Source: a virus. Taken from it: a stretch of 45,484 bases of DNA. A program made the translations under genes and the position numbers. The notes under the pieces were generated by a model. It worked only from the letters and a program-made list of their open reading frames with translations, was not told the DNA's origin and did no database searches. The stretch is from positions 1 through 45,484 of IMG/VR virus record IMGVR_UViG_3300036851_000471. One strand, given 5' to 3'. Below are positions 1 to 45,484 of the stretch, in pieces (the stretch's first letter is position 1; each line of letters begins with the position of its first letter).

Positions 1-133
1 CTAATGTCTATACCCCCGACATTGTACAACATTGCTCAAGGTTACACAGATCGAGCCCCTACCGGCACTTTGCCCCTGTCCCTTCTTCTTCGTCAAAAAA
101 AAAAAAAAAAAAAAGACTGGAAAGGGTGTAAGG
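1..133. repeat. Left copy of terminal direct repeat
   Basis: This stretch is repeated at 45353-45484. The copies are identical except that the A tract is 20 long here and 19 long at the right end. The genome is therefore circular, circularly permuted, or carries short direct terminal repeats. The homopolymer difference means it is not a simple exact k-mer overlap. The first bases hold a small perfect dyad, AATGTC (3-8) and GACATT (18-23), around TATACCCCC. Confidence 0.9.
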
Positions 134-184
134 GAGGGTAGGGGGGTGCCGATTCTGTGTAATGTTGAGCAATGTTACCCAATG
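19..184. other. Origin-like region: inverted repeat, A tract, CATTG repeats
   Basis: Positions 29-49 and 155-175 form an inverted repeat with 19 of 21 matches; the left arm begins ACATTGCTCAA. Between the arms lie a 20-A tract (95-114) and a G-rich run. Further CATTG-type copies sit at 19-24 and, inverted, at 179-184. The region lies between the divergent leftward (45292) and rightward (346) genes. Iteron-like repeats, an asymmetric A/T tract and a position at the divergence point suggest a replication origin or initiator site. This is inference; no DnaA box was recognised. Confidence 0.5.
124..146 (+). other. G-quadruplex motif
   Basis: Four G runs (124-126, 132-134, 136-138, 141-146) are separated by loops of 5, 1 and 2 nt. 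This satisfies the canonical G3N1-7 rule. It lies 9 nt downstream of the A tract and inside the inverted repeat. Confidence 0.6.
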
Positions 185-246: not shown

Positions 247-275
247 TTGACACCTCCAAAGCGTTTTGGTATTCT
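247..275 (+). promoter_or_regulatory. Sigma70-type promoter for the first rightward gene
   Basis: TTGACA (247-252), a 17-bp spacer and TATTCT (270-275) match the sigma70 consensus. It reads rightward into the gene at 346, leaving a leader of about 65 nt. The motif GACTTGACA is shared with the promoter at 1009. Confidence 0.8.
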
Positions 276-345: not shown

Positions 346-861
346 ATGGCACGAAAGAAAGAGGCGCACGAGGAGAAGCTGAACTACACTCCCGGTGTCG
401 ATGAAGTCACGATCGAGCTGTTCACCGGCGAGGGCTACAATGCGGAGGACAAAAAAGTCCTCGAAGTGCATGTGTTCAAGCTGAATGACCTGCCGGCGAC
501 GCTCGAGTCGGGCGAAGGCCCGAAGTCGATCGCCGCGTACGGCTTGCAGTCGTTGCTGCAAGATCGCACGAGCGAGGTCAAGGAGTCCGCCCGCGCGAAG
601 CTGGAAGCGATGCGCGAGTACTTCGAGATCTTCAAGACCGGCAAGTGGCGCGAGTACAAGGAAGGTGTCGGTCGCAAGGCCAGCATCAATCCGCTGTTCG
701 CGCAGGCCCTGAGCAACATCAAGAAGGCGCCGCTCGCAGCCGTGATGAAGCGACTGACCGAGATGACCAAGGACGAGCGCGATGCGCTGCGTGCCCTGGA
801 GCCCGTTCAGCAAGAGATCGCCCGGCTCGAGGCCGAAGCGAACGTCGACGTTGGCTTCTAA
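346..861 (+). CDS. Early-type hypothetical protein, paralogue A
   Basis: A 171-residue protein of unknown function. It is paralogous to the product of the next gene (1090-1575). Shared features are an N-terminal MARK, a central AYGL..LQDRTSE block (about residues 65-80), a YFE...G.WR segment, a PLAAV.KRL block and a C-terminal VGF. It is charged and probably helical, with no membrane segment or recognised catalytic motif. The ATG is preceded by GAAAGAGGTG. The gene has its own promoter (247-275) and terminator (881-909), so it is a single-gene unit. Strong isolated expression at the edge of the right arm suggests an early or abundant host-interaction or DNA-associated protein, but no function can be assigned. 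Confidence 0.85.
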   Translation: MARKKEAHEEKLNYTPGVDEVTIELFTGEGYNAEDKKVLEVHVFKLNDLPATLESGEGPKSIAAYGLQSLLQDRTSEVKESARAKLEAMREYFEIFKTGKWREYKEGVGRKASINPLFAQALSNIKKAPLAAVMKRLTEMTKDERDALRALEPVQQEIARLEAEANVDVGF

Positions 862-1089: not shown

Positions 1090-1575
1090 ATGGCACGAAA
1101 GGAACGGGATGCCAACACGGTGTCCATCAAATACGACTTCACGCCGGAAGGCGTGGTCGCTACCAAATGGAAGGGCGAGGAATTCAAATCCGGCGAAGTG
1201 CTGGATACGGATACCTTCCTTCTGCGCGAACTGCCCTTAGAGTTCGTCCAGCGGCTTACCGCCTACGGACTGGGTAAGTGGCTGCAAGATCGTACCAGCG
1301 AATCGAAGGGCGCGGACGCCAAGCTGGCCGATATGCGTGGCTACTTCGAAAAGGCGTGCGCGGGCGAATGGCGCAAGGCCGCGACGGCCTCTGTGCGCGG
1401 AATCGACCCGCTGCTGGCTGCGGCACTCGCGGAGGTGTACGACGCGCCGTTGGCCGCCGTGCTCAAGCGGCTTTCCGGCATGACGCCCGACGAACGCAAG
1501 GCGATCAACACCGGCGACGTGGCGGTGCGTTACGCCGAGCTGCGGGCGGAAGCCGAAACGGAGGTGGGCTTCTAG
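1090..1575 (+). CDS. Early-type hypothetical protein, paralogue B
   Basis: A 161-residue protein, a diverged tandem copy of the gene at 346. It keeps MARK at the start, an AYGL..WLQDRTSE block (about residues 57-72), a RGYFE...GEWR segment, PLAAVLKRLSGMT..ER and a terminal EVGF. The ribosome-binding site AGAAGGGGA precedes the ATG. It sits between its own promoter and terminator as a second monocistronic unit. The core is conserved while the N-terminal 50 residues differ, suggesting that the paralogues share a fold but differ in partner. Function unknown. Confidence 0.85.
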   Translation: MARKERDANTVSIKYDFTPEGVVATKWKGEEFKSGEVLDTDTFLLRELPLEFVQRLTAYGLGKWLQDRTSESKGADAKLADMRGYFEKACAGEWRKAATASVRGIDPLLAAALAEVYDAPLAAVLKRLSGMTPDERKAINTGDVAVRYAELRAEAETEVGF

Positions 1576-2012: not shown

Positions 2013-2564
2013 ATGGCCGGGATTAACAAATTGCGATACAGGCATCTGGCGATTATGGACTGGATGCTGACGAACCCAGACCGCACTCAGGACGAGTGCT
2101 CGGCGGCGCTCGGCTATACGTCCGCCTGGGTGAGCATCGTTGCCTCGAGCGATTTGTTCCGTGCGGAGTTCGCCCGCCGCCGGAAGGAGTTTGAGGGGTA
2201 TCACAATGCCCGGCTCACCGGCAAGCTCACGGCGCTCGCGGACAAGGCGCTCGACCGGCAGTCGCAGCTGCTCGATCCGGACCCCATTACGAGCGCCTTA
2301 CCCCATCCGCGTGTGGTGCTCGACAGCGCGAATCTCGCCTTGAAGGCCCTTGGGTATCTCGACCCCAAGGCGCCAGCAGGTGGGGTGAATGTCAACGTGA
2401 ACGCAAATATCGACGCCCGGCGTGTAGACCCACAGGCATTGCAGGAGGCTCGGGCGATTTACCGAGCGCTGAATGCCGGGGCTACAACTATCGCTTTGGA
2501 GTCTAAGGTGGAAGATGGACAGAGCAGCACGGCAGGCCCTCTGCCTTCCGCCGCCAAACTTTAA
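2013..2564 (+). CDS. terS: Terminase small subunit (TerS), probable
   Basis: A 183-residue protein. The N-terminal part (about residues 10-55) looks like a helix-turn-helix of the phage terminase small subunit type (a PDRTQDECSAALGYT helix pair followed by FRAEFARRRKEF). A central helical region would support oligomerisation, and the C-terminus is low in complexity. TerS recognises the packaging site and hands DNA to TerL. It lies one gene upstream of TerL, as expected. There is no ribosome-binding site before the ATG, and the promoter -10 ends 7 nt upstream, implying a leaderless start. Its 3' end overlaps the next gene by 50 nt. Confidence 0.7.
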   Translation: MAGINKLRYRHLAIMDWMLTNPDRTQDECSAALGYTSAWVSIVASSDLFRAEFARRRKEFEGYHNARLTGKLTALADKALDRQSQLLDPDPITSALPHPRVVLDSANLALKALGYLDPKAPAGGVNVNVNANIDARRVDPQALQEARAIYRALNAGATTIALESKVEDGQSSTAGPLPSAAKL

Positions 2565-3036
2565 GCCCGTCCGCAAGGTCGACGCCGCGTGGTTTGTCAA
2601 ACCGCCGGGATTCATCTATGGGCGGGGCGCACGCGGCGCGCGGGCCGGCGGCATTCGCTACGAGCGAAAGGCCCAGGAACTACTCCAGCACCGCTACGAT
2701 GGCCGGTATCTCCCCTCGCCGTGGATTCGTTTCTCGACCGAAGGTGGCTTCCGGCTCTGCCAGCCTGACGGCCTCTTGTTCGACGTCAAGCGTGGACGCC
2801 TCACGGTGCTCGAGATTAAGCTTAAGCATACGAGCGACACCTACTATCAGCTCTTGCAGTTTTACGTCCCGGTGCTTGCCTTCCTCTTCCCGCGTGCTCT
2901 CTGGGAGATTCGCTGCTGCGAGATTGTTAAGTGGTACGATCCCGGCGTGGCGTTTCCATTCCCGACGCAGTTGCGGGAGAACCCTGAGGACTCCGAACTT
3001 GATCACATCGGCGTACACATTCTGGGAGTGAGCTAA
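2515..3036 (+). CDS. PD-(D/E)XK-like nuclease-fold protein
   Basis: A 173-residue protein starting at the ATG at 2515, preceded by AAGGTGGAAG; a longer upstream start lacks a good ribosome-binding site. The segment PDGLLFDVKRGRLTVLEIKLKHT (about residues 79-101; key residues the Asp in PDG and the Glu and Lys in EIK) has the spacing of a PD-(D/E)XK nuclease core, followed by a YYQLLQFY helix containing a Gln as in many of these enzymes. It lies between the two terminase genes and overlaps TerL by one base (TAATG). A role in packaging-linked DNA trimming or junction resolution is inference. Confidence 0.6.
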   Translation: MDRAARQALCLPPPNFKPVRKVDAAWFVKPPGFIYGRGARGARAGGIRYERKAQELLQHRYDGRYLPSPWIRFSTEGGFRLCQPDGLLFDVKRGRLTVLEIKLKHTSDTYYQLLQFYVPVLAFLFPRALWEIRCCEIVKWYDPGVAFPFPTQLRENPEDSELDHIGVHILGVS

Positions 3037-4511
3037 TGGAGCAGGACACCGCCCCCGTCGAGGAGATAGTAAAACTCGCCGCGATCGACACACTCTTCTT
3101 CGGGCGGGTGTTCTTCCCGAAGACCTTCCGCCAGCCCTCGCCCGAATTCCATCGGGGGATCATAACGACGGTCGAGGCGGCGGCGAATCGTTATATCGCC
3201 ATTAAGGTATTCCGCGACGGGGCGAAGACTACCCTACTCCGCGTGTTCTGCGCCAAGCGAATTGCCTACGGCCTCTCCCGCACGATTATGATCGTGTCGG
3301 CCTCGCAGAGCCACGCTATCCGCTCCGTGCGGTGGATCAAGAAGCAGATTGAATTCAATACCAACTTCGCTCAGACGTACGGATTGGTGAAGGGGAGCAA
3401 GTGGACGGACGAAGAGCTTGAGATAAAGAACACCGTTCTCGACATTACGATCTCCGTGGTCGCCGCCGGTATTACCGGCCAGACGCGCGGTGTGAACATC
3501 GACGACTATCGCCCAGATCTAATCCTGGTGGACGATCCGTGCGACGAGGAAAATACGAAGACTCCGGAGCAGCGGCAGAAGACAGAGGACCTGCTCGGCT
3601 CCCTGCAGAAGGGCCTCGCGCCGGTGTCGGAGAATCCCGACGCTAAGATGGTGATCCTACAAACCCCGCTCAACCGGGAGGACGCCATCGAGCTTCGCAT
3701 GAAGGATACGCAGTGGGCCTCGCTGGCCTGCTCTTGTTTTGATGCCGAAGGCCGATCGACGTGGGAAGCTCGGCGCTCCACGGCGTGGCTGCAGGCGGAG
3801 AAGGAAGCTCACATTGCACGGAACCAGTTGTCCCTTTGGCTGCGAGAGATGGAGGTTACTGTTGTCTCCCGCGAACTGGCAACGTTCCTGGTAGAGTGGC
3901 TCCAATATTGGGATGTGCTCCCTGAAGGGATGATGGTATATATTGGTGTCGACCCCACGCCGCCGCCGAGGGCCGGACAAGAGAACACCTCCAATGCCCA
4001 CCTCGACGATGCGTGCATCTCCGCTATCGGCCTTTGGCGGGGACGTGTATACCTCATTGAGTATTACGTTTGTAAGTCCCCGAATCCAATGGAGTTTATT
4101 GTAAAGCTCTTCGAAATGGTTCGCCGCTTGCGACCGATCTCTGTGGGAGTAGAAACGATCCTCTTCGCCCGTACACTATCCACGCTCATCAACGATGAGA
4201 TGCAACGACTGCAGTTCTTCTTCCTTGTCATTCCGGTGGAGGACAAACGGAACAAGATGGTGCGTATCACTCAAGCATTGACAGGTCGGGCCTCACAGCA
4301 TATGCTCTACGTCAGCCCGAAGCATACGGAGTTTATCGACCAATTCGCGACGTATCCTGATGTAGCCCACGACGACATTCTGGATGCGGTCTCAATCGCG
4401 CTTGGTCTAATAAACCCATACGCCGAAAGCGGCAACACTTACGATGGGGAGTTTGTGAGGGAACAGGAAAAGTCCCTCGAAAAACTGCCTAACTTCGGGA
4501 GATGTCCGTGA
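3036..4511 (+). CDS. terL: Terminase large subunit (TerL)
   Basis: A 491-residue packaging motor and nuclease. The ATPase half has a variant Walker A RDGAKTT (residues 60-66) and Walker B LILVDDP (162-168). A C-terminal RNase H-fold nuclease carries Asp306 (YIGVDP), Glu373 (GVET) and the DD..D cluster at 446-450 (AHDDILDAV). These are the expected acidic metal ligands. It couples ATP hydrolysis to filling the procapsid through the portal. Translation is coupled upstream (TAATG) and the portal gene starts 10 nt before its stop. Confidence 0.92.
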   Translation: MEQDTAPVEEIVKLAAIDTLFFGRVFFPKTFRQPSPEFHRGIITTVEAAANRYIAIKVFRDGAKTTLLRVFCAKRIAYGLSRTIMIVSASQSHAIRSVRWIKKQIEFNTNFAQTYGLVKGSKWTDEELEIKNTVLDITISVVAAGITGQTRGVNIDDYRPDLILVDDPCDEENTKTPEQRQKTEDLLGSLQKGLAPVSENPDAKMVILQTPLNREDAIELRMKDTQWASLACSCFDAEGRSTWEARRSTAWLQAEKEAHIARNQLSLWLREMEVTVVSRELATFLVEWLQYWDVLPEGMMVYIGVDPTPPPRAGQENTSNAHLDDACISAIGLWRGRVYLIEYYVCKSPNPMEFIVKLFEMVRRLRPISVGVETILFARTLSTLINDEMQRLQFFFLVIPVEDKRNKMVRITQALTGRASQHMLYVSPKHTEFIDQFATYPDVAHDDILDAVSIALGLINPYAESGNTYDGEFVREQEKSLEKLPNFGRCP

Positions 4512-27100: not shown

Positions 27101-27900
27101 TGCTCGTGGAGTTGGACGTCAATCCTGACTTGGCGATGTATGGGCTCTCGAGTCACTACGGACTCGGGCCTCTGCACGCCCTGGGCCTGGCCGGCGTCCC
27201 TGTGCCCAACGTCGACATTAGCGGAAGCGTGTCGATGGGCCGGCCGATTCCGTGGTTTAATGATCTATTCACGGAGACGACGAACGTCGACGCGAAGGTT
27301 GGGAAGAACCTCTTGAACGTCCTCGGCCCGATCGCGGCAATCCCGTATCAGGTCATCCGGGCGGTGGAAAGTAACGATCCGAATACGTGGAAGAATGTAG
27401 AGCGCACGCTGCCGGTGTTCCTGAAGAACATCTCGAAGGGATATCGCTGGCTTTCGGAGGGACAGGAAACCTCGCTCGGAAGGGCAGAATTGATGAGCTT
27501 CACGGATACTCAAGGTCGCGCCGAGGCTATCGCACAGACCCTAGGCTTCACGCCGGCTCGTTTGAGCCGCAAGTACGACCTCATCGGTTCGCAGAAGGAA
27601 GCCAGTCTCTACTGGAACGTCAAGCGGAAGATGGTAATGGACGACATCGCCGATGCGTTTGCCTCGGGCGACCTGGACGCCATCAACGCGGCGATGCAGG
27701 AGATGCGGACCTTCAACTCCCAGCTGCACGACGTGCCGGAATTGCGCCCGCTGATGCTCTCCCCGCGCACGATCAAACGCAGTATGGATATGCGGGCTAA
27801 GTCCCGCCGGCAGCGGGAGATGGGACTTCCGGTAGAGCGGATGTACCGGCCACTATACCAGGAGATTGCAAAACAGCACCCCGGAGCGGATACACCATAA
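21199..27900 (+). CDS. Giant multidomain 'polyvalent-type' ejected protein (2233 aa)
   Basis: One reading frame of 2233 residues at the end of the virion operon. Seen in order: a disordered Pro-rich linker (about 290-390); a kinase-like region (about 415-620) with KSYIKFDD, VVDAWLANWDVVGLD and RTDVGGALRYRAMG; a zinc-metalloprotease motif HEFGH at residues 876-880; an ADP-ribosyltransferase-like region (about 1105-1280) from PLYRGQK to YDPTSVKSVSANVGTF; and a helical C-terminal half (1700-2200) resembling large-polyvalent-protein-associated domains. Co-injected polyvalent proteins combine such domains to counter host defence and aid entry. Assignment of each domain is inference from motifs. 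The gene contains operator copy 3, and its 3' end overlaps the opposing gene by 104 nt. It is not a recognisable N4-type virion RNA polymerase. Confidence 0.75.
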   Translation: MVDDIDRLFAAPTLPEQPLLDEMDDVDRLFYEPPAAPVEAALPPKKPGLVKSTVVAPVRGGATAIASVGRGSELIDETLGPAASAAHKATHPGYAVVSTLAEVLRKPAEKYVETHPRAVEDILEPGSAMGFLQGALERIGEVGGQFVAMPAAPLQHIGEQAETLERKEIKPTLANVAIPAAINTGLDYLGFLKVLKFAGITGDAAEKTAKSLRQVGVDYLTTTGIETGTEVVQELVTLYNAKLQADESLALTPEERYQLVQVGVDTMIGMAGLGAPSAYSQARDAQQGVNPDGTNIFDNDPKLSTEPGGTPPTTTEASSLPPPSTPVLPAPLTEGAPPLTPGVTPNAEAQERQGQGPSSTPAVPQQVATTEKPPEPIEPAATPTPSEEKPTIGSMGDMAFTQLTEEEKTFAYGKTDLNFGPYVQIGPQLGTTLGGKFIDIESGDKSYIKFDDNADRLKNEELAGKLYELAGVRTLEPRIVPDVEGKQALQTFWAEDLGSTEQVVWKAKRGFVVDAWLANWDVVGLDFTNIQADPAGNLVRTDVGGALRYRAMGAPKPPLTAEVQELTSLRDPNVNPQAAAVFANVTSADIVQGAQELAKISDDDIRSLVIQYGPEGALQKEGLADLLIARKSWIVENWAVKEPEDSYFNEPEDIDEDAIPVNTKLSTDDPSLWPVPQAAQTELGGSLDEVHAELINEVDAHLRFLSLQGKTAQGPIEVAGMKTKSMEPKYSKATPSLFDGDVSEKHLPAGGVVAGPYDAATHAPGTVVEIGIKEALAENPTAPIRFIRPLLENFIKTLAPDMKVVLTTLQVLNTKTKKQEPIGSTWGAHVSFDKANGLVAIAINIPAIQASPLLSKADAAKREVAERQLLFATVAHEFGHALMNNAFFRAANYTKIAVMKEYRTWLSFMKNASVAEFYREFPTGPHSELMLDFIKKEKPGAATMKVLDYFKEADLNYALSFNEWFAMQVARWATQRQEMLRVKTVDPEARKFWIGVAELLKQFYTKFLKKFAPSGTMATYLDALVAEVHAQAKAKELGLTPGTQRAADLGLAVPKTIVQTSGKTKKGKPPAVKTDDTLAPKMLAAQRLKNLMAWFGDGAVKKADGTPKPLYRGQKVLTRYFKPSSTYAHAIFLSEKKGFSAGWKSAHPEIEWEHEYDDKIQWSDKWGPEKGLYKVYTNIKNPFDFRNPQHVAMLEKKLKDKKIIAVKQQSGGTLPVASAMKAVKEGGWPVLEGQTVQNIIRFELGHDGFYMQEGGAVNLGVYDPTSVKSVSANVGTFSKEHVELDLQSDPTSQGAQDARNTGATPRMVRDVDNFTSANVGWGKLWGIIDPLNFLTPLQIAERFGIKMFKEYINRVQQYANTKAKIQEQAAELTDDVRKLSSAQNRRLTTFTYDVSTSSDELGRRLTEEELAKLRQRHGVTDHEMEIWRKIDASFTKVLTDYESAMVYEAGRLFTRDGKQFRQAWIAAKDQAQQTALIKLLAKDTKAGTALLAQMNKIQEQFGKLREKNYFPRSRFGQYALRLVATQDGVQYDGKTFKKGETMDFRQYESEKDRLADARLVKRDAPAGSRVSVGLIDDTTYSFMGVPQVVIEMLKNSDLLNLTDVQKNRLNDIALSMLPGRSFMKHLKERKGVKGYSEDLLRTYSNYMLKASGHIARAEHAQDMSEALALFNAETKSLQLEDTDTRDALLSYGKRHLDYLFNPDNDLAALRAIGFQWYLGFSVKSALVNLTQVPLVTYPVLAARFGDGAAVKQITRAYKDVRLSLHKMKQLEAQVVQALQQANAEGLTNESFANSLAGADENIVLQNLAPKGVTDSILQKATYYGGWMFRHAEEYNRRVTLVAGMRAALDEGLPYEQAYAAAKEAVQKSQFEYAKWNRPEFMRGKKSALFLFWQYIQHASYLAFNGANSKEGRRAAVRYMLLMLLVGGTQGLPFMETLMDILDFTGTKAKELLGVSNPRMALREDLRELLVELDVNPDLAMYGLSSHYGLGPLHALGLAGVPVPNVDISGSVSMGRPIPWFNDLFTETTNVDAKVGKNLLNVLGPIAAIPYQVIRAVESNDPNTWKNVERTLPVFLKNISKGYRWLSEGQETSLGRAELMSFTDTQGRAEAIAQTLGFTPARLSRKYDLIGSQKEASLYWNVKRKMVMDDIADAFASGDLDAINAAMQEMRTFNSQLHDVPELRPLMLSPRTIKRSMDMRAKSRRQREMGLPVERMYRPLYQEIAKQHPGADTP
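25160..25189. promoter_or_regulatory. Palindromic operator, copy 3 (inside the giant gene)
   Basis: GGGGTAAATTATG, GGG-type centre, then CATAATTGATCCCC. It lies within the coding sequence of the 2233-residue protein, so it may work as a stoperator-like roadblock rather than at a promoter. The dyad is nearly perfect (one inserted base). Confidence 0.6.
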
Positions 27901-29062
27901 GCTTCGATCCGAGCTGCCGCATCTCCATCTTCCCCGCGAACACCGCCGCGATACAACAAGCCTCGAAGGACTCATGTCCCATCCGCGTAGAAAGCTCGCA
28001 GTAAAGGTGCTGCTTCGTCGTGGCGCCGATCCGGTTGAGTACGGTGAGGAAGACTCCGAGGTCCTTGACGTCGTCCCGGTCTGTGATGGTGTCGAAGACC
28101 TTCGTCATATTTTCTTCGATTGTCCCGAGCATAGTGAGAGCCTTCTCGAAGTCCTCGGGCTGTATTAGCATGTCGTCTCGTTGCGCGGCCGAGAGGATCA
28201 TGGCAATCTTGTGCATGTGTGTCTGCTTGCGCGCAGAGTAGCCGGCGATACGGTCGCCTTTTAGGTGATCGGGAGTTTCAATCCAGTGGTCGTTATACCA
28301 CTTCTCGCCCAGAGCGTAGGCTTCTTTCGTAATCTGGAATCTGCCCCGCATTTTTGAGATGTGGATTAGGTCCTCGATCAATAGCTTGCGCTGGTCTTTG
28401 AACTCCACGGGGATGTGATTGCCGGGATAGGCCACGAGTTGATACTTCGAATCCGCGTAGACGAATACCGTGCGGGAAGTGAAGCCGCCGCCGATTGCGT
28501 ACTCGGGGATGTTCTCGCGAATCCAAGCGGGCGTGGTGCCGGCGATGATGTTGATCCAGGGATTGGGGATTACTTCCTCGCCGTCCATCTTCGTCCGCTT
28601 CGTCCACGGCACGTTGCGGCCGTCCCAGAGGTCGACGAGAACGTCGATCATCTCTCGGTTCCGCATGTCGAGAAAGGTGCCAAGCTCACTCGCGGCGATA
28701 GTAAGGCAGCTCATGGGGAAGAGCTCGCCCGTGCCCATATCTACCATTTCGGTCTTTTGCGAGAAGCTCTGGGTGAGGGCTTGCCACGTTACGGAGTCGG
28801 GGCCGAAATTAACTCCCGGCACCTGACGTAAGAGGTCCATTCCCACGCCGGAGGTGGTGGACTTGTTCACAATCCCAGGCGGTGCGACAAGTACGATGAA
28901 GAAATTGGGCTTCCATGTGAAGTAGCCCATGTCGACCCAACACTTGCCACGGAGTGCCCCCGCGAGGGTACTCACGGCGGTCCAGAAATGGAACTGTGGT
29001 GGCGCTTCGAGATGCTTCGTGTATTCGATATACGCCTGGATCCAGTCGCTATGGTGTCTCAC
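27797..29062 (-). CDS. Primase/helicase-like ATPase (DUF3987-like)
   Basis: A 421-residue protein. The N-terminus (FWTAVSTLAGALRGK, about 26-40) and a variant Walker A PPGIVNKSTT (61-70, Asn where Gly is usual) are typical of DUF3987-like D5-type phage replication ATPases. Downstream, LTIAASELGTFL (acidic Walker B-like) and NIIAGTTPAWIREN (sensor-like) follow. It is likely the replicative helicase of the module. Its start overlaps the DUF1937 gene by 14 nt, and its 3' end runs 104 nt into the opposing giant gene. Confidence 0.75.
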   Translation of the reverse strand: MRHHSDWIQAYIEYTKHLEAPPQFHFWTAVSTLAGALRGKCWVDMGYFTWKPNFFIVLVAPPGIVNKSTTSGVGMDLLRQVPGVNFGPDSVTWQALTQSFSQKTEMVDMGTGELFPMSCLTIAASELGTFLDMRNREMIDVLVDLWDGRNVPWTKRTKMDGEEVIPNPWINIIAGTTPAWIRENIPEYAIGGGFTSRTVFVYADSKYQLVAYPGNHIPVEFKDQRKLLIEDLIHISKMRGRFQITKEAYALGEKWYNDHWIETPDHLKGDRIAGYSARKQTHMHKIAMILSAAQRDDMLIQPEDFEKALTMLGTIEENMTKVFDTITDRDDVKDLGVFLTVLNRIGATTKQHLYCELSTRMGHESFEACCIAAVFAGKMEMRQLGSKLMVYPLRGAVLQSPGIVAGTSALPEVPSPAAGGT

Positions 29063-29404: not shown

Positions 29405-30148
29405 TTATCTCCACTGAGTTTTCTGACAGTTGCCCCACGAGGCGGGGGAACACTTCAATCCCATTGGGATGATCAGCAGGTCGGGATAGGGAACGGGGAC
29501 TTTGGTAAGCTCGAAGGCAGTGGGAAGGACCAATGCTCGATCACTTTCACGGAGTTGGAATACAAGTGAATCGTGAACTTGGAGTAGGACTTGGATGATG
29601 GGAAGGTGAGTATCGAAAGCTTTCCAGATTCGGTTGATAACAAGAGCAACGGTGGATTGAGGAATCCAAGCAAGGGCCTCTTTGAGCAGCTTGTCGTCGA
29701 TGCGGGTGAGATATTTCCGTCGGTTGCCGAAGGCATTTCGCACCTCGCGGGTGGTTTGGAGTTGTTGTTCGATTCGATTGTGCCAGCGGGCGATGTCCGG
29801 GTGGGCGGCGAACCACGAGTCGATAAAGTGCTCGGCCTCGCGAAGGGAGATTTTAAGGATCGTGGATACGGTATTCGGTTGGGCTCCGTAATTCACCATG
29901 TGGACGCCCTGCTTGGCGCGGTAGTAGCGGATGTCGGAATTGTCCTCCTTGTCACAGCCGCCAAAGATGGCGATGGCATTTTCAAGGTGGAGATTTTTCC
30001 CTGAACGGAAGACTTCCTTTAGCTTTTCATCTCCGGCGTCCCACGCTACGACTTGCGCATCGGCCTTCGAAAGATCGCCTTCGAAGATAAAGTAGCCGGG
30101 GTCCGGGCGGAACAGCTTGCGGACGTTTGGAAGCTCAAGAGGTTGCAT
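29405..30148 (-). CDS. DNA polymerase A, C-terminal polymerase fragment
   Basis: A 247-residue protein with the catalytic palm and fingers of family A DNA polymerase: motif A GDLSKADAQ (Asp25), motif B K79...YG (QGVHMVNYG), motif C QVHDSLVF (His192-Asp193). It lacks exonuclease and N-terminal polymerase parts, which are in the upstream gene. The ATG overlaps that gene's stop (TAATG), with GGAGGG 6 nt upstream as its own ribosome-binding site. All polymerase residues are intact, so a two-chain enzyme is likely rather than a decayed gene. Confidence 0.85.
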   Translation of the reverse strand: MQPLELPNVRKLFRPDPGYFIFEGDLSKADAQVVAWDAGDEKLKEVFRSGKNLHLENAIAIFGGCDKEDNSDIRYYRAKQGVHMVNYGAQPNTVSTILKISLREAEHFIDSWFAAHPDIARWHNRIEQQLQTTREVRNAFGNRRKYLTRIDDKLLKEALAWIPQSTVALVINRIWKAFDTHLPIIQVLLQVHDSLVFQLRESDRALVLPTAFELTKVPVPYPDLLIIPMGLKCSPASWGNCQKTQWR

Positions 30149-31821
30149 TAGCCACCCTCCGGGATGTTCTGTAAGTTCAATCCATAGCCGAAGGCGTCCT
30201 TCGAGGAGGAGAGCCGGAACGTTTCCGTCCCGCCCAAGTTATACGAACAACGGACTTTTGAATCCGCTTCTACCCGAGCTGATACGAAGGTCGAGTAGAA
30301 AACCCCAAGGCTACGATACTCGAGGATACGCTTGCACAGCGGAGTTAGCAAGGGCTCCTTTCGCATGAGCTTGGTCAGGGCCTCATCGTCGGTGGACGGC
30401 TGACGAGTTTTACGATTGAGAATCGGATCGAATCCCAGGCAGGTGTAGAAGAGCGACGCAAGTTGCGTCGGCGAGCGGAAGAACGGCACCTTGCCCTTCG
30501 GCAGGATTCCCTCCGGGAGGATGGAGTGGAACCACGCTTCGTACTCGGACATCTTCGCCTGGAGGACGAGCGCGTATTCGCCGGCGAGCTTACGATCCCA
30601 TGTCACACCGCGGAGCATCGTGCGGAGGACTGGCTGGAACATCGACATCTGGAAGCAGTACTGCTCGTGGAGCTTTTCCCTCTGGATGATCTTCTCGATG
30701 TTCTCGCTGATTTCCCACGTTGAGACACAGTCCTTGCAGTTGTAAATCCACAGCTGCTCCTCTCCGACACCCGGTTCCCAGTCCTTCCCCTCATCCTTCC
30801 AATACATATGATAGTCGCAGTAGAGCGACGACAGCGTGTTGAGGTCCTTCGCCATGTCGCCAGGGAAAATCGTGTGCTGTGCAAGCATCGTGTCGCAATA
30901 CATGCTTATCAAGAAGTGCCAGAAGCGGGCGATATACTGCGAATCGTAGAGGAAGTTTTGGCCTACGATACGGGCATTGGGGTGCGTCAGGACATCACGC
31001 AGCGCAAGGATTATGGCGAATTCGGTCTCGAAGGGCCAATAGCCAGCGGGATTGTCCGTACACATGAGCGGGATGCACAGCGCCCGCGTCTTCGACGTCG
31101 CGATGCCGATGCAGGCGATGTGCCCGAGGCGAGTCTCAATGTCCACGGCGAGGCGCGTCGGGCCTGCGACGAGGTCTCGCTTAATGTCCGCAAGGAAGGC
31201 GAACACGGCGTCCTCGTTCGGCCTTACTGTGAAGTCAAAAGCAGGAGAAGGCCATGAGCCTTGCCTTAGCCCCATCATGGCCCGACGCAGATCATGGGTC
31301 AGCAGGATGCGCCATTGCCACTGGCGTAGCACGGCGGCTGGATGAATCGTTGGCAGTACCATTGGCAACGTCGGAAGAGAAGAAGCAAGAGAAGAGCGAA
31401 GATGCATCATCGAGCCGCGGTACTTCGTGATTCCGCTTTCGCCCGTCAGTGCCCAAAGGGCCGTGTCGCCGAGGGCGATGATTATTTTCGGTTTGACCTC
31501 CTCAATTTCGCGATTAAGTTCCAGAAGGCCAGATACAATATGAGGATGAGGATAGCGGTCGCCATAGGGAGCAATACCTCGCTTTTTCGCCTCGGTCTTT
31601 TTGTAGAAGAAATTGCCAATCTTATTCGCCGGCGGGCGATGGCGGCAGACATTCGTCACGAAGCACTGGCGTCGGTCGATCCCGGCTTCGCCTAGCATCC
31701 GCGTGAGTTCGATGCCGCTCGCGCCTACGAAGGGCTGGCCGGTTTCCTCCTCCGTCTCGCCGGGGGCTTCGCCGACGATCATTATCTCCGCGTCACGCGG
31801 TCCGCACGGGGACACCTTCAT
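30148..31821 (-). CDS. Uracil-DNA glycosylase fused to polymerase A exonuclease/N-terminal part
   Basis: A 557-residue fusion. Residues about 10-180 look like a family 4/5-type uracil-DNA glycosylase (GEAPGETEEETGQPFVG near 17-33, NVCRHRPP at 57-64, IALGD, and the HP motif at 160-161). The four Fe-S cysteines of classical family 4 are not all visible. Residues about 220-370 carry a 3'-5' exonuclease: VDIET (226-230), VGQNFLYD (286-293) and Y..KDC..T (360-368). The end (531-554: TETFRLSSS...NLQNIP) is the start of the polymerase domain, which stops just before motif A. The remainder is the next gene. Confidence 0.85.
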   Translation of the reverse strand: MKVSPCGPRDAEIMIVGEAPGETEEETGQPFVGASGIELTRMLGEAGIDRRQCFVTNVCRHRPPANKIGNFFYKKTEAKKRGIAPYGDRYPHPHIVSGLLELNREIEEVKPKIIIALGDTALWALTGESGITKYRGSMMHLRSSLASSLPTLPMVLPTIHPAAVLRQWQWRILLTHDLRRAMMGLRQGSWPSPAFDFTVRPNEDAVFAFLADIKRDLVAGPTRLAVDIETRLGHIACIGIATSKTRALCIPLMCTDNPAGYWPFETEFAIILALRDVLTHPNARIVGQNFLYDSQYIARFWHFLISMYCDTMLAQHTIFPGDMAKDLNTLSSLYCDYHMYWKDEGKDWEPGVGEEQLWIYNCKDCVSTWEISENIEKIIQREKLHEQYCFQMSMFQPVLRTMLRGVTWDRKLAGEYALVLQAKMSEYEAWFHSILPEGILPKGKVPFFRSPTQLASLFYTCLGFDPILNRKTRQPSTDDEALTKLMRKEPLLTPLCKRILEYRSLGVFYSTFVSARVEADSKVRCSYNLGGTETFRLSSSKDAFGYGLNLQNIPEGG

Positions 31822-33140
31822 GGCGCCACTTCCTTCCCGATCCCGGCGATTGTCTCAACGGACATGGCGTGATACTTCTCAGATATTTCAATTCCTGTCG
31901 CGCGGCATTTAAGTCTTGTCGCTGCCGGGAATATAGGCCCGCTCCCACAAAAAGGATCGAGCACGCTATCGCCAGGATTAACAGTTCTCTTGAGGAGATT
32001 GTGATAGACCTCGGAGGGCTTGCCGGCAGGATGGTCATGCTTTAGCTCCTGTGGGATGTCGATGACATCGTGATATAGGGCAGTAACCTTTCGCTGTCCC
32101 TTATTAGCGAAAAGGATACACTCGTATGTGTAGCGGGGTCCGAGCTCTGGGGAAGGATAAGCACCGACGTTTCCTTTGTACCAGATAAACGGACGCGGCC
32201 AGACGTCCCAGCCGGCGAGGGTGAAGAGGGCATTGAGCTTTTGAAAATTCGAAAGGTCACAGAATAGATACAAATGTGCCTGTCGTTTCGCCACTCGGAA
32301 AAAGTCGTCAGCGAGATGCTGAAAGAGAGTGAGGAAAGTTTCCGGCGAGTCGTCGTATTCATGCATGCTCCCGTCCCAGGATACGTCCTTGTGCATGTCG
32401 ACTCCATAGGGCGGGTCGGAGCAGATGACGTCGAAGGACTCGACTTCGAAGCGATGGACCTCCTGCCCGGCGTCGCCGCGAATGAGGAAGTGATCGCTCG
32501 AGGAAATGTCGATGGTCTTCCCGAGCTCGATGCGGTGGTTATCGGTGAGCTTCTTCTTGAGAATCTTCACGGCCTCGCGTTGGGACTTCGCCCGCTTCAC
32601 GTCGGGGTCGTCGAGATGCTTAACGAGGGCGATTGATTCCGATACCTCATTCGCCTCGCTGTTTAGGGCTGGAGCGCCCTTGATCTCCGACGCCGTATCG
32701 GCGTAGGTCCAGCCGGAACGACGGCCGCTGCCCCCAGTGCCGTGCTGTTCCTTCCGCATGGCGTCGAGTTCGGAGATGGCTCGAGCGCGCTCCTGCCATG
32801 TCAGGTCCACACGGAGGATGTTCTCCGTTAGCTCCGCCTCGCGGACACCGATTGGGTCGAGGTCGGAGATGGTGCTGAAGGGAATCTCGCCAGGCAGGAC
32901 ATGGCACCCGTCGTGAGTGATGGTAGAGCCAAGCTCGTGGAGTTCCTTCACGGCACGGAGACGGCGCTCACCAGCGACGAGATACCAAATGTCCTCTTCC
33001 TTGTTGTAGCGAATGACGATTGGGTGCAACAGCCCCTGCTTGAGGATGCCATTAGCCAGCTCGGTGATAGCGGCTGGCAGGAACTCCCGGCGCTGACGGT
33101 TATCGGCGACGACGATTCTATCGAGCGGAATTGTTTTCAT
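31818..33140 (-). CDS. ParB-like nuclease/CTPase-type domain fused to DNA methyltransferase
   Basis: A 440-residue protein. Residues 1-110 form a ParB/Srx domain with the LVAGERRLRA box (54-63) and N-terminal RIVVADNRQRR. Residues about 230-430 form a class beta DNA methyltransferase: DPPYG (242-246) precedes DPFCGSG (395-401), with a KP motif near 374. Such ParB-methyltransferase fusions are known in phages and may read or protect specific sites. Its start overlaps the preceding gene by 23 nt, and its stop overlaps the polymerase gene (ATGA). Confidence 0.85.
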   Translation of the reverse strand: MKTIPLDRIVVADNRQRREFLPAAITELANGILKQGLLHPIVIRYNKEEDIWYLVAGERRLRAVKELHELGSTITHDGCHVLPGEIPFSTISDLDPIGVREAELTENILRVDLTWQERARAISELDAMRKEQHGTGGSGRRSGWTYADTASEIKGAPALNSEANEVSESIALVKHLDDPDVKRAKSQREAVKILKKKLTDNHRIELGKTIDISSSDHFLIRGDAGQEVHRFEVESFDVICSDPPYGVDMHKDVSWDGSMHEYDDSPETFLTLFQHLADDFFRVAKRQAHLYLFCDLSNFQKLNALFTLAGWDVWPRPFIWYKGNVGAYPSPELGPRYTYECILFANKGQRKVTALYHDVIDIPQELKHDHPAGKPSEVYHNLLKRTVNPGDSVLDPFCGSGPIFPAATRLKCRATGIEISEKYHAMSVETIAGIGKEVAP

Positions 33141-34564: not shown

Positions 34565-35431
34565 TTAACCTCCCGCGGGCGAAACCGAATAGAGCTTGCG
34601 CCATTTGTCAATGAGCGGCACGAAGCTCGGGGTGATCCCCTTCTGCCGGGGCATAAGCCGAGCCTTGGTCTGGATGTTGCCTTCCGCCGTGCTCCAGAGG
34701 AACTTGTCCCCTTCGAGGTAGGCGAAGATGACCTCGTCGAAGACTCTGGGTAACGTTGGGGCGAGCTTCTTTCCAAGTGTGGACAGCATGAGATCGATGC
34801 GGCCGGTGGTCTCGTCGCGCTCCGGCTCGATGTGGCCAGTGAGCAGGAAGTGTGCGTTCGTATCGCCGCAAATCTTCATGATGATGCGGGAAAGATTGTC
34901 CATTGCCATGCCCCACTGGGCCATTGACTTCATCGGCGAGCCACCCGCTACAAGGTCCAGTGCCATTGTGTTCAGGCCGGACATGGAATCGACCACTATC
35001 GCGCGCGAGGAATCCCATTTGGAGACGTCACCGAACTGCTCACCATTCTGATCGACGAAGTTGTTGAACTGCGTCACGAAGTCGATGAACTGCGAGTACT
35101 CGTTGCGGTTCAGTCCTTCCATCTTCTGGAGGGCGCTTTGGGAAAGCGTGTTCACCTTCCGCGCGTTGTCGATGATCGTGGCGAAAGAGGGCGCGGCGGG
35201 CGCGATGTAGCGATAGTGAAACTTGCTGGTGTCGATCTTGAAGTCGACGGCCGCCTGCATGATTGTGTTCAGACCACCCGGCTCCGTGAAGATCACGAAG
35301 ACCTCGAGGCCGGCTTGGAGCAGGGTGAGAATCGAGTGCGTCTTTCCGACGCCGTAGGAACCCATCAGGAGGATTTTCAATCCGGGCGGCATGGGTGCGG
35401 TGGACGGGACAACGGCGAGTTGGGCTGTCAT
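34565..35431 (-). CDS. Sak4-like RecA-family ATPase (recombinase)
   Basis: A 288-residue protein. Walker A GSYGVGKT (residues 24-31) and Walker B AIVVDS (144-149) sit in a P-loop ATPase core of the Sak4/AAA_24 group that catalyses single-strand annealing or strand exchange in phages. Direct neighbourhood with the DUF669-like ssDNA-binding gene supports this. It is preceded by operator copy 4 and the leftward promoter at 35500-35528, so it is a regulated first gene. Confidence 0.8.
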   Translation of the reverse strand: MTAQLAVVPSTAPMPPGLKILLMGSYGVGKTHSILTLLQAGLEVFVIFTEPGGLNTIMQAAVDFKIDTSKFHYRYIAPAAPSFATIIDNARKVNTLSQSALQKMEGLNRNEYSQFIDFVTQFNNFVDQNGEQFGDVSKWDSSRAIVVDSMSGLNTMALDLVAGGSPMKSMAQWGMAMDNLSRIIMKICGDTNAHFLLTGHIEPERDETTGRIDLMLSTLGKKLAPTLPRVFDEVIFAYLEGDKFLWSTAEGNIQTKARLMPRQKGITPSFVPLIDKWRKLYSVSPAGG

Positions 35432-39064: not shown

Positions 39065-39264
39065 GCTGCCTCCCAGAGGACATCTTTTAGGACGAGTTTT
39101 CGCAACCGTAGGACGTCCTTTGCACGGTAGTCTCGAAAGGCATCGAGCAATTGTCCATCCTTCAAGTCGACGTTCCTTCCATAGACTGACAACCCTAGGT
39201 CTTTTTCGAGGTGCTTGATAACTCGCGCAACTGTCTTTTCTGCCGGCCAACGATTCGTGCTCAT
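39061..39264 (-). CDS. Small hypothetical protein
   Basis: A 67-residue protein starting at ATG 39264 (ATGA overlap with the nuclease stop). Charged, with a helical stretch (KTVARVIKHLEKDLGL) and a basic C-terminal helix. An extended frame into the nuclease gene is unsupported. Function unknown. Confidence 0.55.
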   Translation of the reverse strand: MSTNRWPAEKTVARVIKHLEKDLGLSVYGRNVDLKDGQLLDAFRDYRAKDVLRLRKLVLKDVLWEAA

Positions 39265-40214
39265 GCTGCCTCCAACATGCGTGCGAGACGCTGCTCGTCG
39301 GATAGCGTCGGGTCCCACTCCTGAATGCGGTAGTTCCTCTCGATCCAGGCCTCGGGGTTGTTGCTGGTGCAGAGCTTAACGAAGGAGCATCCGCCGAAGG
39401 CCGCGCAGGAGTCGGAGAGGTTCAAGTCCCAGTGCTGATCCTGCCAGCATTGCTTCATGCGACGGATGTCCCGGTGCAACTGCTCGTACCAGCGCTCGAT
39501 CTCCCAATCGGGGCGATAGGTGATGACTTGTCCGTGCTTGATACCCGTCTTGAGAAGGCAGCACCCACGCACAATCGCAGCGTTCACGGGGAGATTGTAC
39601 TGCTTGGCTCCCCAAATGTAGCCAGTGAATTGGGCGCGGAGGTCCCACTGCTTGCTCCACGTTGGGCCGAGCTGCGAGCAGGTCTTCTCATCGACGACGA
39701 ATAGCGTGTCGTTCTTCTCCCCGAGCATGTCGAAGCGGATGGAGTAGAGCAATGGCTCGCCCGTCATAGGATGTTTTTCCTCGAGCGGCAGCACTGCGTT
39801 GAACTCGACGGCCGGCTTGCCGTCCATCATGTGCGGGGAGAGGTAGTCGACCTCCGGGCGGTACTCGTGCCAGTAGTCGACATAGCCAGCCGCCACGCGG
39901 TCGAAGGTCTTGTTGGAGTTCAGCCAGAACTCTGTCAGCTCCCGATCGGGATCGTAGCGGTACGCCTTGATGAGAGCGTAGAAGCCGGCGAGGAGCGCTT
40001 TGTCGAAGCCGCCGCCTTGCTCGGGGTCCCAGTAGACGCGGCGGAACACCTCGACACCCTTGGCGAAGGCGGCTCCGGCGTGGAGATGTACGGAGTCAAA
40101 CGGGGGCGCGAGGTGGCGGTGATGCGCCCAATACATCTTCGTCGGGCATGCCACGAAGGCTGAGCGCATGGTGTTGTCGAGCACGCGCGGGAACGGTAGG
40201 GGATTTGGGTTCAC
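39261..40214 (-). CDS. PD-(D/E)XK nuclease with possible 4Fe-4S cluster
   Basis: A 317-residue nuclease of the Cas4/AddB-like group. Core residues are His45 in the HAGAAF box, Asp162 (RFDMLGE), Asp175-Glu176-Lys177 (VVDEKT) and Gln195 (RAQFTGYIWG). Four cysteines, Cys23 near the start and Cys270, Cys276 and Cys282 near the end, have the split N/C layout seen in Fe-S-stabilised members, though spacing (CX5CX5C) is unusual. It probably acts in recombination-dependent replication or end processing with the ATPase and ssDNA-binding protein. GTG start overlaps the upstream stop (GTGA). Confidence 0.75.
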   Translation of the reverse strand: MNPNPLPFPRVLDNTMRSAFVACPTKMYWAHHRHLAPPFDSVHLHAGAAFAKGVEVFRRVYWDPEQGGGFDKALLAGFYALIKAYRYDPDRELTEFWLNSNKTFDRVAAGYVDYWHEYRPEVDYLSPHMMDGKPAVEFNAVLPLEEKHPMTGEPLLYSIRFDMLGEKNDTLFVVDEKTCSQLGPTWSKQWDLRAQFTGYIWGAKQYNLPVNAAIVRGCCLLKTGIKHGQVITYRPDWEIERWYEQLHRDIRRMKQCWQDQHWDLNLSDSCAAFGGCSFVKLCTSNNPEAWIERNYRIQEWDPTLSDEQRLARMLEAA

Positions 40215-40375: not shown

Positions 40376-40673
40376 TGGCGTCCTCTCCAAAGAGTGCGCG
40401 GTGCATCTCCTCCCGCAGGGCGGTTTTGCTCACCAGCTCTACGGTGTTCTCGCGCGTGACGAAAATGCGGATGTTGTCCATAAAGAGAACGACTGAGGGG
40501 TAGTATGACGGCGCCTTCCTTAGCGCCGTCCGGAAGTTATAAAGCTCCCGCTGAAGATAGCTCGCCTCATTGTGAGTCTTGCACTGGACGCGCGCCGAGC
40601 CGTCGCGCTCTGCCCGGAGGAAGAGCTCGGAGTACTCGACGGGATAGCGCTCGATTCGCTTGAGGCGGGACAT
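40362..40673 (-). CDS. Hypothetical protein
   Basis: A 103-residue protein coupled upstream by a TGATG overlap. Charged, with a helical segment (NEASYLQRELYNFRTALRK) and a beta segment (SVVLFMDNIRIFVTREN). It overlaps the small basic gene by 14 nt. No family recognised. Confidence 0.55.
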   Translation of the reverse strand: MSRLKRIERYPVEYSELFLRAERDGSARVQCKTHNEASYLQRELYNFRTALRKAPSYYPSVVLFMDNIRIFVTRENTVELVSKTALREEMHRALFGEDANASP

Positions 40674-40879
40674 CAGATTTCGCCGAGCTTCTCGAGGGTG
40701 TCGTTGAGTTCGTCGACGACGCCTCCCAAATTGGTGATGTCGCCCTCGAGATCTTCGTCTTCTTCCTCATCGTCGTCGAGGTCGCTCTGCATGTCGTCCT
40801 TCAGGGCTTCGGCCTTGTGGATGACGTCCTCGAGATCGGAAGACACATCCTTGACACGGTCTTTGTATTTCGCTTTCAC
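40673..40879 (-). CDS. Small acidic protein
   Basis: A 68-residue protein, GTG start with AGGAGC upstream. It is helical and very acidic, with an extreme cluster (DDDEEEDEDLE, about residues 35-45). DNA-mimic or protein-inhibitor phage proteins can look like this, but no specific function can be assigned. Confidence 0.55.
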   Translation of the reverse strand: MKAKYKDRVKDVSSDLEDVIHKAEALKDDMQSDLDDDEEEDEDLEGDITNLGGVVDELNDTLEKLGEI

Positions 40880-42902: not shown

Positions 42903-43289
42903 TTATTCATTGGCTTCGGCTTCATGGCGCATCGCGCGCTCGGCGTCGCGAGCCATAACTTCCTGTAGCATCTTGGCGTAGTCGCCGCGGAAGGAAAGGA
43001 CAGGGACCATGCCGCCCCGCTCTTGGCGCACGCGCAGATAGGCCTCTAGGACTGTGAGCAGGCACAAGTGGTATACTCGGGAGGTCAGGCGGTTCGGCGC
43101 CGTGATGGACATCTTGAAGTAGTCCAGCACGCGGTGATGGAATCCGTCGTAGAAGCCTTCCCAGTCCAAGTCGACCTCGTGGTACAGGGCGTCGATGTCT
43201 TTGTTGAGAAGCTTCTCGACACACTTGTGTAGGACTTGAACGGGCGTGAGGCCGCTCACGTCGATTTCCTCGGTTTCGTAGTGTCCCAT
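42903..43289 (-). CDS. Hypothetical protein
   Basis: A 128-residue protein from ATG 43289. Helical, with FYDGFHHRVLDYFKM and a VYHLCLLTVLEAYLRVRQ segment. Acidic N-terminus. A longer upstream start lacks a convincing ribosome-binding site. No family recognised. Confidence 0.6.
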   Translation of the reverse strand: MGHYETEEIDVSGLTPVQVLHKCVEKLLNKDIDALYHEVDLDWEGFYDGFHHRVLDYFKMSITAPNRLTSRVYHLCLLTVLEAYLRVRQERGGMVPVLSFRGDYAKMLQEVMARDAERAMRHEAEANE

Positions 43290-43999: not shown

Positions 44000-44073
44000 G
44001 CGCGCATCTCCTGCCAAGTGCCATAGGCGAGCTTGAGCCAGAAGAGGAAGACGGCGAAGCGTGTTAGCTTCAT
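43996..44073 (-). CDS. Tiny hydrophobic peptide gene
   Basis: A 25-residue peptide (core RFAVFLFWLKLAYG) between two ATGA overlaps. The coupling favours coding, but the size means this remains tentative. Likely membrane-associated if made. Confidence 0.4.
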   Translation of the reverse strand: MKLTRFAVFLFWLKLAYGTWQEMRA

Positions 44074-44255
44074 GGCTTGCACCTTGCGAGCAGGGCGCGG
44101 GCTTCCTTCTGGATGTCGTCCAGCCGCTCCCGGTCTGAACGCCAGTGCCGCATTGTCAGCGCGAGAATGTCATCAACGACGCGCAGGCATTCCTCCCGCG
44201 TCGGCGATGGCGGCGCGCAGACCCGCGCCGCTTCCAGTAGTGGTGATTTGTTCAT
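44070..44255 (-). CDS. Small hypothetical protein
   Basis: A 61-residue protein, helical and charged (REECLRVVDDILALTMRHW), coupled on both sides by ATGA overlaps. Three Cys, no clear metal motif. Function unknown. Confidence 0.55.
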   Translation of the reverse strand: MNKSPLLEAARVCAPPSPTREECLRVVDDILALTMRHWRSDRERLDDIQKEARALLARCKP

Positions 44256-44425
44256 TCGGCCTGCTCCTTAATGCTGGCCTGCAGCTCAGCTACAAGGGCT
44301 TCGACTTGGTCTTTCGGAATGGCGAGGGTAGCGACGATGACTACGGTGCCTGTCCTTTCGTACTCGGCGTTAGCTTCGATAATGGTGAAGCCGGGATCAC
44401 TGTCGGTGTTTATGGAGAAGTGCAT
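44252..44425 (-). CDS. Small hypothetical protein
   Basis: A 57-residue protein with TAAGGAG 5 nt before the ATG. Beta-rich (GFTIIEANAEYERTGTVVIVATLAI), then a helix (KDQVEALVAELQASIKE). The stop overlaps the next start. Missed by length cutoffs. Function unknown. Upstream (44426-44524) is a short gap with a GGGTA-GTT-TACCC dyad at 44496-44508. Confidence 0.6.
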   Translation of the reverse strand: MHFSINTDSDPGFTIIEANAEYERTGTVVIVATLAIPKDQVEALVAELQASIKEQAE

Positions 44426-44524: not shown

Positions 44525-45292
44525 TCAAGCGTGTGTCGTTTCTTTCGCCGGCGGGACTGCGGTGCGGGCGATGGCTTTCTCGCGGTCCCAGCCGTCGGGG
44601 AGGAGGTGTGTGGGAGTGTACTTGTCGGTGTCGGTCGCTGGACCAGTTTGGCCGGGGAACCTGCCCTCGCGCCAGAGGCGGTCCATTGTCCGGATTTCGA
44701 TCTCGGAATAGACTTTCGGCCCTGCGGGCACTGCAGCGGTGGGCGGTGTCTCGTCGAGGCCCTGGGCACGGCGGACGACTTCGGGAGGCACCGGCACGTC
44801 GCTGCTGTATGCTTCTTCCCGAGCTTCCTGAGGGGTAGAATTATCCCCTATAATTTGACCCCGCTTCCCGTCGCCCTGGCCGTACATCTCGAGTACCTTT
44901 CCACCGCCGCTCATACGTCCTTTGATCTCTGAGGCTTCTTGATAGGCGACTGTGTTGATGAATTCCTCCTGGGCTTTCGCGGCTTTGAGCTGTGGTAGCA
45001 GCTGCTCCATGAGGCTCATCTCTTGTTCGTCTGTGCCGCGGTTCACGGCGATGCATTTCTTCCCGATGAGCTTGATCATGTATCCGGCCGCGGCCCTTCG
45101 CTGCGCAAGGAGTTTCTCGTCGGGCGAGCGGGTGCAGGCTTTGAGGTAGGAGTACCACTTCAAGCGAAAGTTCCTCGCGGCCTTCTCGGTGGCGAATTCG
45201 AGCTCGACGGGCTCGAGGGGAAATTGCGAGAGGGTGTCGAGCAGGAGCTTGTAGCTTGGAGGGTAGTATTCGGGGGATTTGGGGTGCGGCAT
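44525..45292 (-). CDS. First leftward gene, hypothetical
   Basis: A 255-residue protein behind the leftward promoter 45323-45351, so probably the earliest left-arm product. The first two thirds is helical and charged (AARNFRLKWYSYLKACTRS, EEFINTVAYQEASEIKGRM). The C-terminal part is Pro-rich with an IEIRTMDRLWREGRFPG segment. No recognised domain. It contains operator copy 6 in its coding sequence. Confidence 0.7.
   Translation of the reverse strand: MPHPKSPEYYPPSYKLLLDTLSQFPLEPVELEFATEKAARNFRLKWYSYLKACTRSPDEKLLAQRRAAAGYMIKLIGKKCIAVNRGTDEQEMSLMEQLLPQLKAAKAQEEFINTVAYQEASEIKGRMSGGGKVLEMYGQGDGKRGQIIGDNSTPQEAREEAYSSDVPVPPEVVRRAQGLDETPPTAAVPAGPKVYSEIEIRTMDRLWREGRFPGQTGPATDTDKYTPTHLLPDGWDREKAIARTAVPPAKETTHA
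44832..44862. promoter_or_regulatory. Palindromic operator, copy 6 (inside the first leftward gene)
   Basis: GGGGTAGAATTAT, CCCCT-type centre, then ATAATTTGACCCC: 11 of 13 arm positions match. It lies in coding sequence, about 460 bp downstream of the left-arm promoter, a position suited to a transcription roadblock. Confidence 0.65.
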
Positions 45293-45322: not shown

Positions 45323-45351
45323 AGTATAAGCGGGCTAGCGGGGCAAAGCAA
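45323..45351 (-). promoter_or_regulatory. Left-arm early promoter
   Basis: On the - strand: TTGCTT (45351-45346), 17-bp spacer, TATACT (45328-45323). It drives the gene at 45292, with a leader of about 25 nt. It borders the origin-like repeats across the junction. Confidence 0.75.
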
Positions 45352-45352
45352 C

Positions 45353-45484
45353 CTAATGTCTATACCCCCGACATTGTACAACATTGCTCAAGGTTACACA
45401 GATCGAGCCCCTACCGGCACTTTGCCCCTGTCCCTTCTTCTTCGTCAAAAAAAAAAAAAAAAAAAGACTGGAAAGGGTGTAAGG
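45353..45484. repeat. Right copy of terminal direct repeat
   Basis: Same sequence as 1-133, with one A fewer in the homopolymer (19 against 20). See the left copy. The unit length of the molecule is therefore about 45.35 kb. Confidence 0.9.

Follow-up and report, generated by a model that had tools for sequence, protein, structure and literature searches.

The origins oriS and oriL of herpes simplex virus and the core origin of SV40 are made of inverted binding boxes around an A/T tract in non-coding DNA. Archaeal oriC regions hold inverted ORB elements around a DUE, together with G-rich strings, and the iteron origins of lambda and P4 hold short phased repeats as direct arrays on one side of A/T-rich DNA. 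For most phages known only from metagenomes, the origins are unmapped. The element described here is similar to the herpes and SV40 origins in that inverted boxes in non-coding DNA enclose an A/T tract, but its arms are longer tandem arrays, its apex is a homopolymer of A, and it lies in a bacterial virus with no homologous initiator known. It shares with archaeal oriC, where the A/T-rich part is the unwinding element, the inverted arrays around A/T-rich DNA and the G-rich strings, whereas its repeats differ in every phage. On the one hand, it has short phased repeats beside A/T-rich DNA as in lambda and P4; on the other hand, these form mirror-image arrays on both sides instead of a one-sided direct array. 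It is also similar to the terminal-repeat junction of T7 and of Caulobacter phage Kuura, where, in the concatemer, a palindrome or an A-tract element is placed immediately to the left of the terminal repeat, although the T7 palindrome was weak in our scan (score 15) and, unlike the element, has no A-tract. In the open PMC papers that we searched, the element is not described.

The window, meaning the whole stretch of 45,484 bases that was analyzed, is an IMG/VR virus record and has ends that overlap in 132/133 bases, with A20 versus A19 as the sole difference. Its map is circular, about 45,352 bp long, and opened at the element; because the ends overlap at the element, the cut falls there, and the start of the window is an assembly cut. 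The features of this region are as follows.

7–50, no strand: left arm of the inverted repeat, ungapped 44 nt (gapped arm, 45324–45352 plus 1–90)
20–49, plus strand: three direct repeats of 10 bp within the left arm, degenerate and CATTGNNCAA-like, read from the sequence
95–114, plus strand: A20 apex tract, with a second copy as A19 at 45447–45465
124–146, plus strand: G-rich part of the right arm with the G-quadruplex (G4) motif, by regex match
154–197, no strand: right arm of the inverted repeat, ungapped 44 nt (gapped arm extends to 224)
155–184, minus strand: 10-bp repeats of the right arm, mirror image of the left, read from the sequence and the arm alignment
247–275, plus strand: strong sigma-70-like promoter towards the gene at 346–861, from the promoter scan
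45323–45351, minus strand: TTGCTT-17-TATACT, resembling a promoter for the leftward gene, by eye only
45353–45484, plus strand: contig-end repeat of 1–133, an overlap of the circular map, not taken as a physical end

The initial annotation had proposed an origin-like element in which a 19/21 inverted repeat (30–50 versus 154–174) encloses a 20-nt A tract and a G4 motif. All three parts are present, the G4 motif being the only G4-regex match of the whole window, and they form the core of a larger imperfect palindrome, which with gaps starts at 45324, crosses the join, and ends at 224, and which has 85/110 aligned positions identical between its arms. It is the strongest palindrome of the circularized genome, with a score of 37 against 21–22 for the next best; none of 300 dinucleotide shuffles reached this score (highest, 17), and the DNA fold of the element showed a z of −6.9, with 0/200 shuffles as good. 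Considering that an energy scan with 160-nt windows failed to single out the element in the loci because GC content dominates, we replaced it by aligning one arm locally with the other arm's reverse complement. A search of the window against Rfam gave zero matches. The extra CATTG copies that had been reported were found (CATTG/CAATG at 20, 30, 170, 180, and 344), but the elements of relatives do not conserve these words. The absence of standard DnaA boxes also held: no TTATNCACA within one mismatch occurs in 1–1695, and the genome total is 19 versus 13 expected.

To find relatives, a terL search and terL alignment yielded 78 loci in viral_contigs; 56 loci were scanned for palindromes, 31 were listed, and 28 elements were used in the statistics. 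Three loci (L066, L077, and L084) were left out since the best palindrome in each lacks an A-rich apex, the near-duplicate contigs L007, L024, L026, L033, and L092 were not counted, and L030, seen by eye, was kept despite its weak score of 15. In addition, 21 circularized genomes were compared, namely 18 contigs, Mel-JY34, VS-ABTNL-3, and the window itself. The element of Mel-JY34, a Microcystis phage, is at about 44030–44380, and that of the Vibrio phage VS-ABTNL-3 is at 40647–40805. In 19/21 of them, the best palindrome of the genome is the element, upstream of terL (18 clear, G017 borderline), and in 19/21 the apex carries an AT run of at least 10. The remaining two, G018 and G019, failed the palindrome scan and show weaker versions by eye next to the gene c1; the refuting case of relatives that keep the flanking genes without the repeats thus did not arise in most of the genomes tested, these two being the misses among the 21. 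The distance from the element to terL is 2.0–4.6 kb except in VS-ABTNL-3 (7.0 kb) and G008 (9.3 kb), where the element, though far from terL, still adjoins c1. In the Desulfofustis phage, an A17 element is present but does not rank as the top palindrome in the scan. Among unrelated or distant comparison phages, we found no dominating palindrome in PaMx41 (22/22), Tiera (19/18), Vibrio 1.119.O (19/18), EBPR podovirus 3 (25/24), or CRP-810 (21/19).

The arms are wholly different between phages, yet match within each phage. Accordingly, what is conserved is an architecture without sequence similarity: mirror-image arms of short repeats with a period of 10–11 bp and an A-rich apex. In 48 arms of the 28 elements, direct repeats peak at a period of 10 (z 11.2), then at 11 (z 8.5), and more weakly at about 20–22 and 31; therefore, the arms are arrays with one repeat per helical turn, mirrored on both sides. 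The arms are roughly 30–170 nt long and the elements 191–379 bp, except L082 (158) and L055 (125). Each phage has its own repeat unit, CATTGNNCAA-like in the window, AGGCCACTGG-like in L074, and GCTACCTAACATC-like in L165. The A-tract is longer than the T-tract on the terL-coding strand in 24/28 elements, and T is longer in L008, L025, L069, and L081. When we sought a shared sequence word beyond the A-runs, GGGGTAT was found in 16/38 elements versus 4.2 expected, a modest signal for an inner box. The G4 motif, always on the plus strand, occurs in only 7/28 elements, though 0.47 were expected; it is enriched but dispensable and not a constant part.

In 18/19 genomes, no ORF of at least 80 aa starting with ATG crosses the center of the element. 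In the window, it lies between a leftward gene (44525–45292) and a rightward gene (346–861). The position at the divergence of the two genome arms, which had been pointed out before, is thus true of this genome; in relatives, by mechanical ORF calls, the flanking genes diverge (left minus, right plus) in 7/19 and are both leftward in 8/19. From the origin-like description, the non-coding position, the conserved architecture, and the retention with replication genes have stood, but neither the G4 motif nor the divergent position is constant. The genes that are needed for the following comparison are these.

346–861, plus strand: c1 (phrog_28928), function not assigned, beside the element in most relatives
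1090–1575, plus strand: c1 paralogue, by family comparison
2013–2564, plus strand: c0, a TerS-like HTH protein that accompanies the element
3036–4511, plus strand: terL, terminase large subunit, by family match
27797–29062, minus strand: primase/helicase (phrog_14296, DUF3987), marker of the replication module
29405–31821, minus strand: family A DNA polymerase in two ORFs, the upstream one also carrying the UDG and 3'-5' exonuclease domains
34565–35431, minus strand: Sak4-like annealing ATPase, replication module
39261–40214, minus strand: PD-(D/E)XK nuclease, replication module, used as independent search bait

The plus strand of the window encodes c0, terL, portal, and capsid, and the minus strand encodes the primase, the polymerase with UDG and exonuclease, a ParB_N-methylase, SSB, Sak4, and the nuclease. 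The UDG-exonuclease-polymerase is fused and split over two ORFs, with the uracil-DNA glycosylase, the 3'-5' exonuclease, and the start of the family A polymerase in 30148–31821 and the rest in 29405–30148. At 31818–33140, inside the replication module, a ParB_N domain is fused to an N6/N4 DNA methylase.

Searching with the nuclease gave 554 encoding stretches, of which the best 80 were taken on; 38 of these 80 loci were examined (at least 6 kb long, nuclease at least 4.5 kb from the left end). The element was the top palindrome (score at least 22, AT run at least 9) in 24/38; of the 38, at least 7 come from contigs that the terL set already contained, and many of the misses are short or truncated loci. 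MW202489 (L149) combines the replication module of the clade with a set of capsid and terminase genes that appears to be unrelated. Its sequence shows no match to terL, portal, or MCP of the window, while its primase, polymerase, methylase, Sak4, and nuclease are 36–48% identical to those of the window; its element scores 39 (next, 22) and is flanked by two c1 genes. There were 13 near-whole records without the window-type MCP, and L217/G043 was left out for too little upstream sequence. Among the remaining 12, the element is present in MW202489 and in 8/11 other contigs (L179, L191, L194, L196, L198, L205, L210, and L218), that is, in 9/12; four of these eight also have no window-type terL. 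It was not found in L206, L212, and L216. CRP-810 is the opposite chimera, with a related capsid (35%) and portal (26%) but no match to the replication module and no element. Since the element is kept with foreign capsid and TerL and is missing from CRP-810, it goes with the replication module rather than with the capsid or TerL. The element is real, widespread, and linked to this module; as seen in the capsid chimeras, it travels together with the replication genes.

Based on these results, we consider the element a candidate cis-acting replication origin with inverted iterons in a clade of polA/primase podovirus-like phages. This reading leads, held with slightly less than even confidence; a packaging or terminus site is its main rival, and the two may coincide. 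As an origin, the two mirror-image arrays, with one initiator-binding repeat per helical turn, would flank an A/T tract that opens. A phage initiator would bind both arrays and melt the A/T apex, and the melted apex would load the phage helicase-primase and polymerase. The A strand, which is usually the terL-coding strand, would give the element its polarity. The signature of one dominant palindrome with an A-rich apex and helically phased mirror repeats locates a candidate for an origin or end site without the help of sequence similarity, and it does so for most genomes in a large clade (554 stretches that encode the nuclease). Since almost every phage has its own repeats, the protein that binds them should co-vary with them, which would make the initiator identifiable. 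The suggestion of a new initiator type went further than our data, as no new initiator was identified.

The conserved neighbor of the element, c1, was considered in this respect. In most loci, c1 lies beside the element, frequently in two paralogous copies (a cluster with 28 loci), and it occurs in 24/25 replication-module records. It is acidic (median pI 5.3), and its model (pLDDT 85.8) gave no PDB fold match at E ≤0.001, with a best VIA Z of 3.6; therefore, c1 is a poor initiator candidate. By HMM, it was absent from Kuura, the Desulfofustis phage, and G015. Since G015 has the element, c1 is a companion and not an obligatory partner. A single-sequence c1 search found zero relatives and one c1 against GenBank phages zero matches, because the family is too divergent. 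The acidic tails of c1 are reminiscent of SSB tips, and paralogous pairs flank the element; a strong sigma-70-like promoter precedes each c1 copy of the window (346–861 and 1090–1575).

Besides the poor fit of c1 as initiator, several observations speak against an origin. The classic bidirectional GC-skew switch is missing in most genomes: in coding-strand terms, plus-strand genes average a GC3 skew of +0.146 and minus-strand genes −0.101, the latter being negative in 16/19 genomes. Thus, in most genomes, G is enriched on the terL strand along both arms, a pattern better matched by one-way copying, or by an origin placed at a genome end, than by a bidirectional origin. A sign switch at the element was seen by bins in G008, G009, G017, and VS-ABTNL-3, where gene direction tends to change as well. 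No element was found in PaMx41 or Tiera either, though they distantly share primase, TerS, and TerL. Two further observations, c0 and Kuura, lead to the main rival.

In that explanation, TerS rings would bind the phased repeats and TerL would cut nearby, making the left genome end. Fold-back of a palindrome, duplicating the terminal repeat, has been proposed for T7 concatemers, and the palindrome of the element may fold back likewise. We regard a packaging site as unlikely, but closer to the origin reading than any other separate function. It gains from c0, which is present in 24/25 replication-module records; c0 accompanies the module too, so the linkage is compatible with a TerS site as well. 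In 9/24 members, the c0 family matches the terminase small subunit phrog_2538, and the best fold match of the c0 model (E 0.016) is 2ao9, a phage protein that we take to be TerS-like. In T7, the best palindrome of the last 1.1 kb (39535–39638) is likewise left of the terminal repeat. For Kuura, a distant relative, the published report gives 606-bp direct terminal repeats determined by PhageTerm (PMC9959647). The Kuura record shows these repeats exactly, and the right copy starts at 43208, which is 55 bp right of an A12 tract (43141–43152). By eye, GGGCAGTT occurs left of A12 at 43037, 43056, and 43066 and its reverse complement right of it at 43241 and 43314; thus, the genome end is inside the apparent right arm.

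On the other hand, the Kuura region is not significantly palindromic (9/200 shuffles reach its score; fold z 0.1), and its homology to the element is therefore uncertain. The element persists with foreign TerL and capsid, it is as far as 9.3 kb (G008) and 7.0 kb (VS-ABTNL-3) from terL, and mirror symmetry is, to our knowledge, not usual in pac or cos sites. The contig ends were considered as physical ends and rejected, as their exact overlaps of 89–141 bp resemble those made by assembly, and contigs that are nearly identical do not end at the same place.

We give a somewhat lower probability to a joint role that overlaps with both readings, in which one element is origin and genome end. Copying would start at the A/T apex and run one way round, and TerS/TerL would cut the concatemer within the same palindrome. 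If true, a fast-evolving self-complementary site would couple replication to packaging, and this dual site would pass from one capsid lineage to another in a cassette that also holds primase, polymerase, TerS, and c1.

It is improbable that the element is a divergent early promoter/operator region with a symmetric site for a regulator. The strong promoter at 247–275 beside it and the apparently early-type genes on both sides would suit such a region, but the flanking genes are often co-directional, the leftward c1 on the right side reads into the element in L010, L088, and L030, and the size (mostly 191–379 bp) and homopolymer apex exceed what an operator needs. Very improbable is a partition or DNA-architecture site similar to R1 parC, which is an array of about 11-bp repeats. 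Helically phased repeats and a ParB_N-methylase gene in the replication module are consistent with partition; however, this ParB_N is fused to a methylase and has no ParA next to it, family scans covering part of the window's genes showed no partition ATPase, and the phages appear to be lytic. Compared with the N15-type telomere (tos), the center of the element is a homopolymer loop and not a perfect palindrome, and no protelomerase was among the families scanned in the same part. An assembly or composition artefact, suggested by contigs that, like the window, sometimes end in or near the element, is refuted by its intact passage in many independent contigs and the GenBank records Mel-JY34, VS-ABTNL-3, and MW202489.

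In some genomes, second and third strong palindromes were seen, namely in L063 (G009) at 8572 and 1372 (scores 32 and 28) and in L077 at 2380 (score 46). In L066 (1100–1270) and L084 (3149–3306), a palindrome without A-apex lies 1.4 kb upstream of terL; this is a different element, and each of its arms has a TCTTGACAG motif, the two forming promoter-like sites that face each other.
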